Positions 648-3,991 of a stretch of 64,000 nt of DNA are shown piece by piece. The notes under the pieces are model-generated. The model was given only the letters and a program-made list of their open reading frames with translations. It was not told the DNA's origin and did no database searches. This stretch comes from Demequinaceae bacterium. GTDB taxonomy: Bacteria > Actinomycetota > Actinomycetes > Actinomycetales > Demequinaceae. Where the stretch lies: NCBI GenBank assembly GCA_016933155.1, contig JAFGBM010000004.1, positions 62,001 through 126,000 on the forward strand. The letters run 5' to 3'. Within the stretch, counting starts at the first letter, position 1; every line of letters begins with the position of its first letter. Position numbers and translations under genes: made by a program.

Positions 648-677
648 AGACCCAGACCCCCTAGGGGCAGAGGGTCT
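648..677. terminator. Possible bidirectional terminator between convergent genes
   Basis: Nested inverted repeats lie between two convergent stop codons: outer arms AGACCC/GGGTCT and an inner CCCCTAGGGG palindrome. There is no U-tract and the right half lies inside the end of the secreted-protein gene, so this is weak evidence. Confidence 0.3.
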
Positions 678-1485
678 GGCCACCCCACCAACTGGGTGGT
701 CCGTTCTCCCCGATGTACAGGGTGGCACCCCAGAAGGCGTTCTCGTCCTCGATGATCAACTCGTCCAGCGGGCTGGCGCACGTGAATCCTGAGGCCTTCC
801 GCACCTCGTTGCTGTACTGGCCGACCCACACCGGAACCCAAGAGAAGTCCGGATGCGTGAAGTCGATGGTCACCCGCCAGTGCGCCCCGGTGGTGGTCAC
901 GTTGAACGTGAAGTTCATCATCTCCCCGTCCGGAGGCGATGAGTTCGGGTACGTGCCGGACGTGCCCGTGACGACGACGGAACAGGTTCGCGATAGTTGA
1001 GGATTCCTCCCATTGTTGAGCGCGATGCAACTGACGGACGGGGTGGACGGCACGGAAGTCCACGTGGTGCGGACTCCCCAAGTGCCAATCAGAAGGGCGA
1101 CCCCTTGAACATCCGTACCGCGGTATGAACCCGTAGTGATAATCGCGGATCCGAGAGCCCCCGTGGTGCCCGTTCCCGTGGCAAGTTCCGTCCCTCCGGA
1201 ACCATAGACCACCAAACTCACCGTAAGGCCGTTGCACTCCGAGGGAATGGACTCGATAAGCACCTGGGTGTAACCCCCATGCGAGAAGGGACCCGTGGCA
1301 GCCGTGGGAAGGGTCAGGGTGGTGCACGGGGCCGCCTCGTCCGTTGTGCGATCGCGGCCGAATACCGACAGTTGCGCGGCGGAGGCAACGGTCACCACCG
1401 CGACGGTCGCGGTCAGGCCGACGGCAAGGGCCCACCTGCGCCAGAGTCGGCGACGCCGGCGGCTACGGGATGATCGCTGATTCAT
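661..1485 (-). CDS. Secreted protein, last gene of the SipW-like operon
   Basis: Protein of 274 residues, function not recognised. I chose the ATG at 1485 because GGAG and GGGGGA lie just upstream; a longer frame to 1521 lacks this. The N-terminus is very basic (about eleven Arg before residue 17), then a hydrophobic stretch about 18-37 ending in ASAAQLSV, almost the same motif as in the first gene of the operon (ASAAQLTV). The rest is Thr/Ser/Gly-rich and beta-prone, with paired Cys that could form disulfides, and no membrane anchor or sortase motif. It starts 8 bp after a 57-codon ORF and follows an ER-type signal peptidase. I infer it is a dedicated substrate of that peptidase, an extracellular or surface protein. 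Confidence 0.7.
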   Translation of the reverse strand: MNQRSSRSRRRRRLWRRWALAVGLTATVAVVTVASAAQLSVFGRDRTTDEAAPCTTLTLPTAATGPFSHGGYTQVLIESIPSECNGLTVSLVVYGSGGTELATGTGTTGALGSAIITTGSYRGTDVQGVALLIGTWGVRTTWTSVPSTPSVSCIALNNGRNPQLSRTCSVVVTGTSGTYPNSSPPDGEMMNFTFNVTTTGAHWRVTIDFTHPDFSWVPVWVGQYSNEVRKASGFTCASPLDELIIEDENAFWGATLYIGENGPPSWWGGQTLCP

Positions 1486-1493
1486 CAATCCCC

Positions 1494-1667
1494 CTACTCC
1501 GACCGGCCGGTCAATCCCCAAGTATAGAGGGCGGCGCCTCGAACGGCCTTGAGGCCCAGACCGACGGGCTCGTGCTCGGAGACCGGGATCTCGACGAGCA
1601 TGTCCTGCGACTTGACCCAGGCGAGGAATCCGCCGAGGGCGGCCGCGCCGAGGAGGGCCGGAATCAC
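1494..1667 (-). CDS. Small 57-codon ORF between signal peptidase and secreted protein
   Basis: Short ORF with a GTG start overlapping the TGA of the signal-peptidase gene (GTGA) and an AGAGG ribosome-binding site 5-6 nt upstream. It ends 8 bp before the next gene, so it exactly fills the gap. The product starts with a hydrophobic, Ala/Gly/Leu-rich stretch (residues 3-17, ending in Trp) and continues with an amphipathic tail containing VEIPVSEHEP. Similar to nothing I recognise. Coupled overlap, ribosome-binding site and tight packing argue for a real gene, perhaps a small membrane accessory of the signal peptidase; a chance ORF cannot be excluded. Confidence 0.5.
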   Translation of the reverse strand: MIPALLGAAALGGFLAWVKSQDMLVEIPVSEHEPVGLGLKAVRGAALYTWGLTGRSE

Positions 1668-2275
1668 GATGACCTCTGGCTGGCCCTCACGGCCGGGACG
1701 CCGGTCGGCGTCGGGGAACCGTTCGCGTCGAAACTCACGCCCGTCAGGCTCGGGTTCCGGGGTTCCTCGTCATCCTCGTTCTCTGGTTCGGGCCAGAGGA
1801 TGAGGACGACGGCCGCGAGGAGGATGAAGCCCCACAGCCAAGGCTGGATGAGGAATTCGGCGATCTGCCCTGCTCCGCCGAAGTGCAGCTCGACGGGTCC
1901 CAAAATCTGCTCGTCCGTCGGCTTCCACTGGTCGATCCAGGAGTTGTTGTCACCCTGGACCTCCCAGCCGTCGACGCCGTTGCCCCCGACCACCCGGTGG
2001 ACGACGTGGGCACCGCCGAATTCTGTCGGGGTATAGACGACGATGTCGCCGATCTCGACGGGCCCCTTCCGGGCGATGACGAGGTCGCCGTCGGAGTAGG
2101 TCGGTTCCATCGAGTTTCCGGAGACGATCACGAGAGTGGTGGCGCCCCCGAGCGAGGAGGGCCAGAGGAACCACGCGTCGATCGCGATGATCGCCCACAA
2201 GAGAAGGTTGCCGAGGACCGACAGGTACCAGTGCCCGGTGAATCGGGCACCGATACCTGTCGAGTGGCGAATCAT
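1664..2275 (-). CDS. ER-type (SipW-like) signal peptidase I
   Basis: Membrane serine peptidase of family S26, 203 residues, cleaving signal peptides outside the membrane. The start ATG at 2275 is preceded by GAGGA at 5 nt spacing. A transmembrane helix spans about 17-39, the catalytic Ser is in GNSMEP (Ser55), and the general base is His93 in VVHRVV instead of the Lys of bacterial P-type enzymes. The conserved Asp is in QGDNN (Asp109). This Ser-His-Asp pattern defines ER-type enzymes such as Bacillus SipW. A second helix lies at about 143-163, followed by an acidic tail. It sits 25 bp after a small secreted protein and upstream of another with the same signal motif, as SipW does next to TasA. 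Confidence 0.88.
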   Translation of the reverse strand: MIRHSTGIGARFTGHWYLSVLGNLLLWAIIAIDAWFLWPSSLGGATTLVIVSGNSMEPTYSDGDLVIARKGPVEIGDIVVYTPTEFGGAHVVHRVVGGNGVDGWEVQGDNNSWIDQWKPTDEQILGPVELHFGGAGQIAEFLIQPWLWGFILLAAVVLILWPEPENEDDEEPRNPSLTGVSFDANGSPTPTGVPAVRASQRSS

Positions 2276-2300
2276 GATGTCCTCAGCTGGGGTTGTTCTA

Positions 2301-2702
2301 CTAGCCGATCGCGACCGCAACGCCGTAGATGTCAGCGACGTCGACTGTGCCCGAAAGGGACACGGTCACGCTGCCGGCGGCGTAAGCGATAGAGCCATTG
2401 GCAAGAGCCGCGTCAGCGGCGTCGGTAACGGTCACTAGCACCGTTCCGGTGCAGGTACCGTCAAGGTCGCCGATGACGACCTCGTCGACGGAGTAGCCCG
2501 GAATGCCGTCGTCATACGACGGGGTGTAGGTGACGGTGACGCCGTCAGCGTCGCACTCGGCGATCGCGTCGACACCGGCAACAACATCCGTGCTGTTTAC
2601 CGTGAGCTGCGCCGCCGAGGCCATGCTGAGACCAGCAACACCGACGATGGCGAGCGCTAGGGCAAGAGATTTGCGCGATGTGCGCCGATTGATAGTAGCC
2701 AC
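2301..2702 (-). CDS. Small secreted protein, SipW-dependent class
   Basis: Protein of 133 residues. The GTG at 2702 is the likely start: AAAGGA lies 9 nt upstream, whereas the upstream ATG at 2720 has no such site. The N-terminus is basic and followed by a hydrophobic segment (about 12-28) ending MASAAQLTV, then VVAG, which resembles the signal segment of actinobacterial proteins found beside SipW-type peptidases. The mature part is acidic, rich in Val/Thr/Asp/Ala, with two Cys (ECDADG and GTCTGT) that may form a disulfide and a beta-sandwich-like pattern. First gene of a four-gene operon with the signal peptidase. Probable surface or matrix protein; exact role unknown. Confidence 0.7.
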   Translation of the reverse strand: MATINRRTSRKSLALALAIVGVAGLSMASAAQLTVNSTDVVAGVDAIAECDADGVTVTYTPSYDDGIPGYSVDEVVIGDLDGTCTGTVLVTVTDAADAALANGSIAYAAGSVTVSLSGTVDVADIYGVAVAIG

Positions 2703-2920: not shown

Positions 2921-2921
2921 G

Positions 2922-2994
2922 AGCTGGCAGCGGGACTCGAACCCGCAACCGCCCGATTACAAGTCGGGTGCGCTACCAGTTGCGCCATGCCAGC
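2922..2994 (-). tRNA. tRNA-Thr, anticodon UGU
   Basis: The minus strand folds into a full cloverleaf. The acceptor stem GCTGGCA pairs with TGCCAGC, the D-arm is GCGC...GCGC, the anticodon stem CCCGA/TCGGG holds the loop CTTGTAA (anticodon TGT), and the T-arm carries GGTTCGAGTCC. The discriminator base is U and CCA is not encoded. It decodes ACA (ACR) threonine codons. Confidence 0.95.
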
Positions 2995-3065: not shown

Positions 3066-3956
3066 CTAGGCCGAGGGGGAAGGGGACGGCTCCAGCTCCT
3101 GAGGCGTCGCGAGGTACTCGGCGAACGCCTCGGCCCCAAACTCCCGGACATAGGCCACCCCCGCCGTGATGTTGCCCGGCGTGGTCCAGTACCCGAAACG
3201 GACGCCCTCAATCAGCAGGCCCGGGGTCCCGAACCGTCCGTCGATATCCAAGTAGTCGGGGTTGGACGTCGCCCGATCCGTGGCGGCCGCCAACCACTGG
3301 GTGAACTCGCCGTCCGCGAACCTGTCGACGGTCTCCTTGGAGACCCCGGCACTCAGGGCGAGGTCGGCGATCTCCTCATTCGTCAGGCCCTTGGAGCCCT
3401 CCTCCGGAGGATCGACGAAGGACGCCTCGACGAAGGCCCAGAAGGTCTCTGGCTCGTACTCGGCGACCGTGACCCAGGCGGATGCCATGCGGGTGGAGTA
3501 ATGGGTGCCGACCGACTGGATGTCGAGGATGGACACGGGGTGGTAGTAGAAGGCGATCTCTCCCTGATCCACGAGGGTCCCGATCTCGCCGCTCACGTTC
3601 TGGACGAAGTACGTGCACCACGGGCAGATCGGATCCTCGAGGAGGTCGACCCGTATGGCGTCGGCCGGGGCCGTTCCCCCGGCGATCCCGCCGGGCCCGA
3701 CGAGGATCGCATCGGTCTCGTCGACGACGCTCGGGACCTTCATCTCCCCGCTGGTGTAGACCGTGTACGGACCCGATTCCTTCCCGGACTTGACGATGAA
3801 GATCATGAGCAGGGCGAAGACGACGACGAGGATCAGGGCCCCAAAGGAGGCCAGGATCGTATTGCGCCTGGCCGCGGCCCGTTGCTTCGCCCTGAGCGCG
3901 GCCGCCGCCTGACGGGCCTCCGCCGCCTTCTGAGAGGCAGACTGCTTGCTGGCCAT
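3066..3956 (-). CDS. DsbA-like membrane-anchored thioredoxin-fold protein
   Basis: Thiol-disulfide oxidoreductase of the DsbA family, 296 residues. The ATG at 3956 has AAAGGA 6 nt upstream; a longer frame to 4148 has no support. Layout: a basic Ala/Lys/Arg-rich cytoplasmic tail (1-32), one transmembrane helix (about 34-55), then an extracytoplasmic thioredoxin-fold domain with the active-site CPWC at 111-114 and the cis-Pro loop in RFGTPGL near residue 255. It probably forms or exchanges disulfides in exported proteins. In many actinobacteria it is paired with a MauE/DoxX or VKOR-type membrane redox partner; here the upstream partner appears to be only a remnant (3992-4176). A -10-like TAGTAT lies near 3990. 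Confidence 0.88.
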   Translation of the reverse strand: MASKQSASQKAAEARQAAAALRAKQRAAARRNTILASFGALILVVVFALLMIFIVKSGKESGPYTVYTSGEMKVPSVVDETDAILVGPGGIAGGTAPADAIRVDLLEDPICPWCTYFVQNVSGEIGTLVDQGEIAFYYHPVSILDIQSVGTHYSTRMASAWVTVAEYEPETFWAFVEASFVDPPEEGSKGLTNEEIADLALSAGVSKETVDRFADGEFTQWLAAATDRATSNPDYLDIDGRFGTPGLLIEGVRFGYWTTPGNITAGVAYVREFGAEAFAEYLATPQELEPSPSPSA

Positions 3957-3991
3957 GGTGTTCCTTTCCGTTCCGGATCCTTCCGGACATA

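Follow-up and report, generated by a model that had tools for sequence, protein, structure and literature searches.

A SipW-like signal peptidase encoded with two related secreted proteins in actinobacteria: a probable export system for a surface fiber

Most of what is known about SipW-type signal peptidases that serve substrates of their own comes from Bacillus TasA and from archaea. Both TasA and TapA are cut by SipW in B. subtilis, where the tapA and sipW genes overlap; each TasA subunit is linked to the next through a donor strand at its N-terminus, and TapA, whose N-terminal sequence resembles that of TasA, supplies the first such strand (PMC9674648; PMC10151520). An aromatic residue at position P2' in TasA hinders its processing by LepB (PMC10269814). 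When we searched the literature on SipW in actinobacteria or Cellulomonas, no description of the gene cassette reported here was found.

The window analyzed here is a stretch of 64,000 nucleotides (G000:C3:62001-126000) from an assembly of 1.885 Mb with a completeness of 99.8%; the host is possibly a small-genome actinobacterium from the order that includes Cellulomonas and Demequina. The original prediction had described four tightly packed minus-strand genes at positions 661–2702, and all four ORFs were found there. The first encodes a small secreted protein of 133 aa, designated S (positions 2301–2702, minus strand), with a GTG start at position 2702 that is preceded by AAAGGAA and is the same in all S relatives. 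It is followed on the same strand by the gene for an ER-type (SipW-like) signal peptidase of 203 aa with hydrophobic segments at both ends (positions 1664–2275), by a 57-aa ORF with a GTG start that overlaps the peptidase stop (positions 1494–1667; GTGA), and by the gene for a secreted protein of 274 aa, designated B (positions 661–1485). Because none of the other loci examined had a relative of the 57-aa ORF, the conserved unit consists of three genes rather than four; this ORF is possibly spurious or lineage specific and was set aside as a component of the system. Upstream, the cassette is bordered by a tRNA-Thr(TGT) gene (positions 2921–2994, minus strand), beyond which lies the gene for a DsbA/thioredoxin-like membrane protein (positions 3066–3957, minus strand), a conserved flank outside the cassette that was named from its sequence features (CPWC). 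The downstream border is a plus-strand gene (positions 1–638) that we take to be ung, encoding uracil-DNA glycosylase.

The ER-type Ser/His/Asp pattern predicted for the peptidase was confirmed exactly at Ser55, His93, and Asp109, in the contexts SGNS55ME, VVH93RV, and QGD109NN. Across 17 relatives, S55, M56, and H93 were invariant, as were G108, N111, and D115, and the GDNN109 region was conserved; the Lys of P-type enzymes, which the original prediction had named as contrary evidence, was absent from the peptidase in this alignment. PF00717 (29.4 bits; cut-off, 23.3) and PF10502 (27.8 bits; cut-off, 22.9) matched above their cut-offs, the archaeal-type model TIGR02228 scored just below its own (51.5 bits; cut-off, 51.85), and the best PDB matches were eukaryotic (human-type) SEC11 subunits (7p2q, E = 5e-6). 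A Ser-His pair with a downstream Asp, together with the match to a curated profile, places the enzyme in S26B. The Bacillus SipW equivalog model NF046067 gave 15.7 bits against a cut-off of 190. Because the same genome encodes a separate LepB of the P-type Ser-Lys form (C13:16841, SSSMEPT...DRILVTK), the cassette peptidase is an extra enzyme beside the housekeeping one.

The first and last products of the locus had been noted for their near-identical signal ends, and these are indeed ASAAQLTV in S and ASAAQLSV in B. The DNA pattern encoding ASAAQL occurred three times in the 1.885-Mb genome and not once in the reversed control, so the pair of motifs is not a product of chance. Two occurrences are those in S (positions 2605–2621, minus strand; G000:C3:64605-64621), where the N-terminal strand of the mature protein is proposed to begin, and B (positions 1370–1386, minus strand; G000:C3:63370-63386); the third was out of frame inside a sugar-binding-protein gene and was discarded. 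The pair is also kept in the homologous loci. Furthermore, the likeness extends beyond the signal end to a homology between S and the N-terminal half of B: the S profile picked up this half of B in the majority of genomes (E = 1e-4 to 1e-12), and a profile-profile comparison (hhalign) over approximately 118 columns gave a probability of 98.9% and an E-value of 3.7e-17, with the Cys pair, conserved in S as Cys50/Cys84, in register. Sec signals are usually less conserved than the mature part, and S reverses that order: the mean identity over all pairs was 70% in the signal region (residues 9–36) and 33% in the mature part after it, which fits recognition by a dedicated enzyme.

The original prediction had recognized nothing in the 274-residue protein, and indeed neither B nor S matched any Pfam, NCBIfam, or PDB family above the cut-off. 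Against PDB profiles, S returned only look-alikes of the HIV gp41 fusion peptide (E ≥ 0.4), which were rejected as chance similarity of a hydrophobic stretch. A match of NF038083 to B (E = 1.8e-4), far below the cut-off and confined to the N-terminus, was rejected as similarity of the signal region. The C-terminal domain of B matched the T18.1 pilin backbone (568-aa chain) with an E-value of 2.4e-4, and no single stretch passed, making this a lead only. AlphaFold2 models predicted from single sequences without an alignment had pLDDT values of 38 (S) and 46 (B), and the antibody Fabs that Foldseek returned for the low-pLDDT model of B (TM about 0.2) were ignored. No obvious anchor was found in S or B, in which neither LPxTG nor a lipobox was seen, and among the sequences read, S, B, and the 2-kb locus contained no LPxTG or class C sortase of the kind that defines a sortase-assembled pilus. 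An LPITG motif was found only in a distant protein: at G131:C19 (L196:5175-6379), the gene after that for a divergent SipW-like peptidase encodes a secreted protein with LPITG and a hydrophobic tail at its end, which suggests sortase anchoring in this variant. Meanwhile, a third copy of the S/B domain, with the sequence AASQLSV and a short Cys-rich tail but lacking the C-terminal part of B, is encoded away from the cassette in the genome of the window (G000:C11:26316-26726; L096:6308-6763), and a gene similar to this paralogue is present at G001:C108.

S was present in 20 of the 47 genomes of the family. Among the 37 family genomes covered by both the S and the peptidase searches, S and a close peptidase (E ≤ 6e-42) occurred together in 15 of 15 and were both absent in 22 of 22; two genomes without S (G009 and G021) had distant peptidase homologues only, and a scan of other contigs with the locus also gave only distant SipW homologues. 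S-peptidase-B is conserved within the family and in several other families of its order: the gene order was kept in the family and in families f9 and f6; S-peptidase was found in f18 (G053) and a divergent form in f13 (G131). Of nine regions fetched from other families of the phylum, six had the peptidase next to one to four S genes in tandem, usually with a different second secreted protein (two of the remaining three are on short contigs), and an Ilumatobacter contig has the same arrangement. The genus has one other genome in the sample, in which the S-peptidase pair is duplicated and followed by one B (G001:C76; L097:583-3886). The cassette at G059:C1 (L201:2689-5282), from an assembly that is 50% complete, is disrupted by several frameshifts, which are probably sequencing errors. 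Outside the actinobacteria, an Anaerolineae contig of the Chloroflexota (JAKLPV010000046.1; L115:5512-7999) encodes a SipW-like peptidase of 549 aa together with a secreted protein of 130 aa and another secreted protein of the AAAN type; the long C-terminal extension of this peptidase is possibly a parallel extension.

Where the genes are not fused, the stop codon of the peptidase and the start codon of B share 4 nt (ATGA/GTGA) in 13 loci and 1 nt in G032; in the window, the 57-aa ORF intervenes between the two genes. In seven genomes (G008, G014, G015, G024, G035, G060, and G066), the peptidase and B form a single ORF of 466–535 residues, and at least three changes between the fused and unfused states are required on the peptidase tree. 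The ASA(A/S)QL site, after a hydrophobic stretch, was kept in six of the seven fusions (G060 has ASASGL), which argues that cleavage is probably still required within them. That peptidase and substrate are fused in nature hints at a possible coupling of cleavage to assembly. Because of the perfect co-occurrence, adjacency, overlap, and fusion, S and B are likely substrates of the adjacent peptidase, and the dedicated export system that had been proposed for this locus gains support.

In nearly all family loci and most f9 loci, the cassette lies between tRNA-Thr(TGT) and ung, with the DsbA-like gene upstream of the tRNA gene. All 21 of the 21 family genomes without S had ung, and tRNA-Thr stood beside it in 19 of the 20 S-less loci read, at a distance of 13–250 bp in 18 and 666 bp in one; between the two genes in these 19 loci, there was no S, peptidase, or B. 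The presence and absence of the cassette require six changes on the ung tree. Because f9 carries the cassette at the same site, its repeated loss as a whole appears to be a simpler account than the alternative, that it may have spread by transfer. Viral and plasmid scans for the cassette gave nothing.

When pairwise identities were compared between genomes, those of S, the peptidase, and the N-terminal domain of B were correlated with one another (Spearman 0.36–0.46), and that of the C-terminal domain of B was decoupled from all three (Spearman 0.05–0.13). For example, G003 and G005 share 78% identity in S, 88% in the peptidase, 65% in the N-terminal domain of B, and 39% in its C-terminal domain, for which the nearest relative of the G003 sequence is G029 (51%); for G022 and G029, the corresponding values are 94%, 84%, 47%, and 33%. 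The C-terminal domain of the second substrate is a ricin-type lectin in G103 (PF00652 Ricin_B_lectin, E = 1.3e-19) and beta-trefoil-like, with weak FRG1/RicinB matches, in G001. Distant loci have a CBM96/DNRLRE protein as their second substrate (E = 3e-20, 5e-28, and 7e-16). In other words, carbohydrate-binding domains are swapped on an otherwise fixed unit, as would be expected of an adhesin, and B has the appearance of one with a domain that can be exchanged.

By analogy with tapA-sipW-tasA, the cassette is probably a dedicated SipW-type system that exports a surface fiber (S) and a minor adhesive subunit (B); its resemblance to a surface-adhesion fiber comes from the tail of B, which is swappable and often sugar-binding. 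The signal end A-S-A-A/S-Q/T-L-T/S-V would be recognized by the adjacent ER-type peptidase rather than by LepB. The avoidance of LepB through an aromatic P2' residue, as in TasA, is inapplicable here, since Gln or Leu would occupy P2' in both substrates, and LepB might therefore also cut them. The major subunit, forming the shaft, would be S, which is preceded by a ribosome-binding site of its own and is encoded in tandem in some relatives. B, which in most relatives is either coupled to the peptidase in translation or fused to it, would be present in few copies at the end of the fiber and confer its adhesive specificity. Once freed by cleavage, the N-terminal QL(T/S)V segment would most likely act as the donor beta-strand that joins the subunits, as in TasA/TapA. 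We infer these steps (cleavage by the adjacent peptidase, fiber formation, donor-strand assembly, and adhesion) by analogy. More tentatively, the cassette may represent a separate class of Gram-positive fiber, in which S subunits without sequence relation to TasA are joined by donor strands and an interchangeable lectin-like adhesin forms the end; this adhesin would be produced one-to-one with its own peptidase, and in some species as part of it, so that a self-processing precursor could start assembly at the membrane.

S and B might instead be exported as a pair that does not polymerize, each released as a separate soluble or surface-bound carbohydrate-binding or receptor protein, for example as a substrate-scavenging pair of lectins. 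The lectin and CBM domains on the second substrate of related loci and the two short B-like paralogues away from the cassette (G000:C11 and G001:C108) are compatible with such a pair, and polymers of S are predicted only by analogy; however, S carries no recognized binding domain and is present in tandem copies in other families, and the domain and N-terminal segment common to S and B are what the subunits of one assembly would be expected to have, so we regard this explanation as rather unlikely. A surface system for competition, antimicrobial action, or phage reception, with fast-diverging exposed proteins, a private peptidase, and a presence that varies among close relatives, would account for the patchy distribution with its six changes on the ung tree, for the exchange of the C-terminal domains of B, and for the faster divergence of S (median identity, 36%) and B (30–34%) than of the peptidase (53%). 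Yet the cassette contains no immunity gene or toxin domain, and its conserved borders and the lectin/CBM domains fit adhesion better, which leaves us with little confidence in such a role.

Two further explanations carry still less weight than these. An ordinary Bacillus-type TasA/SipW matrix operon would have a like layout, with a small secreted protein, a SipW-like peptidase, and a second secreted protein, and an N-terminal segment common to both substrates; nevertheless, we consider it very improbable. PF12389 (TasA/camelysin, Peptidase_M73) had no match in S, B, or the genome, and TIGR04088 (SipW-cognate signal peptide) had none in 16 S proteins or the genome, although both matched their B. 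subtilis controls; together with the NF046067 score, this refutes membership at the sequence level. The substrates are thus unlike TasA, as had been supposed, and of the profile check proposed with that supposition, the SipW-cognate model gave no match and the ER-type alignment showed conserved residues. Furthermore, three family genomes encode canonical SipW-cognate substrates (AYWTD, AYWND, and AAWTD) at other sites, in G006 next to another peptidase; the two classes of substrate thus coexist as separate systems. That the peptidase merely neighbors two Sec proteins alike in their A-x-A ends is hardly credible: such ends are common, but a chance association is refuted by what the survey found, namely the perfect co-occurrence and conserved order of the genes, their overlap and fusion, the homology of S and B, and the clean empty sites. 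As separate observations, G006, which also has the cassette, encodes a further SipW-like peptidase, next to which lies the gene for an AAQLST protein of 143 aa (G006:C8; L107:5883-7471), and the only PF12389 match in the family (G068:C55:16361-16633; L205; E = 9.7e-5) is in a genome without the S cassette.

An export system for an adhesive fiber, which we favor, would make the cassette a widespread actinobacterial counterpart of known SipW systems, with substrate families that are unnamed in Pfam or NCBIfam. The cassette allows the roles of shaft and adhesin to be predicted for its two secreted proteins, and provides a direct way to ask why such fibers need their own signal peptidase.

Among known systems, signal peptidase I of the SEC11/TIGR02228 type has the Ser-His-Asp catalytic pattern in common with the cassette enzyme, which differs in being genetically dedicated to a substrate cassette while a separate P-type LepB has the housekeeping role. 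Archaeal bundling pili and thread filaments, donor-strand-complemented fibers cited in PMC9674648, are alike in the proposed N-terminal donor strand on secreted beta-rich subunits; PDB profile searches gave no sequence relation to S or B, for which such assembly is only proposed. The camelysin/CalY operon of B. cereus (sipW-calY1-bc_1280-calY2; PMC10151520) also combines SipW with several secreted substrates, but these belong to the TasA/camelysin family, of which the S-peptidase-B cassette has no member. The organization of a TasA-type operon is seen here in two substrates with similar N-terminal segments beside the peptidase, one of them overlapping it in relatives. As in tapA-sipW-tasA, an ER-type peptidase is encoded with two substrates that have a common N-terminal segment, and the gene for the minor subunit overlaps the peptidase gene, whereas that for the major subunit is separate. 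The cassette differs from tapA-sipW-tasA in that S and B match neither PF12389 nor TIGR04088 and have no aromatic residue after the cut, in the exchangeable domain of B, and in the peptidase-substrate fusions that occur in its relatives. By this analogy, the cassette would work like tapA-sipW-tasA but outside its substrate families.
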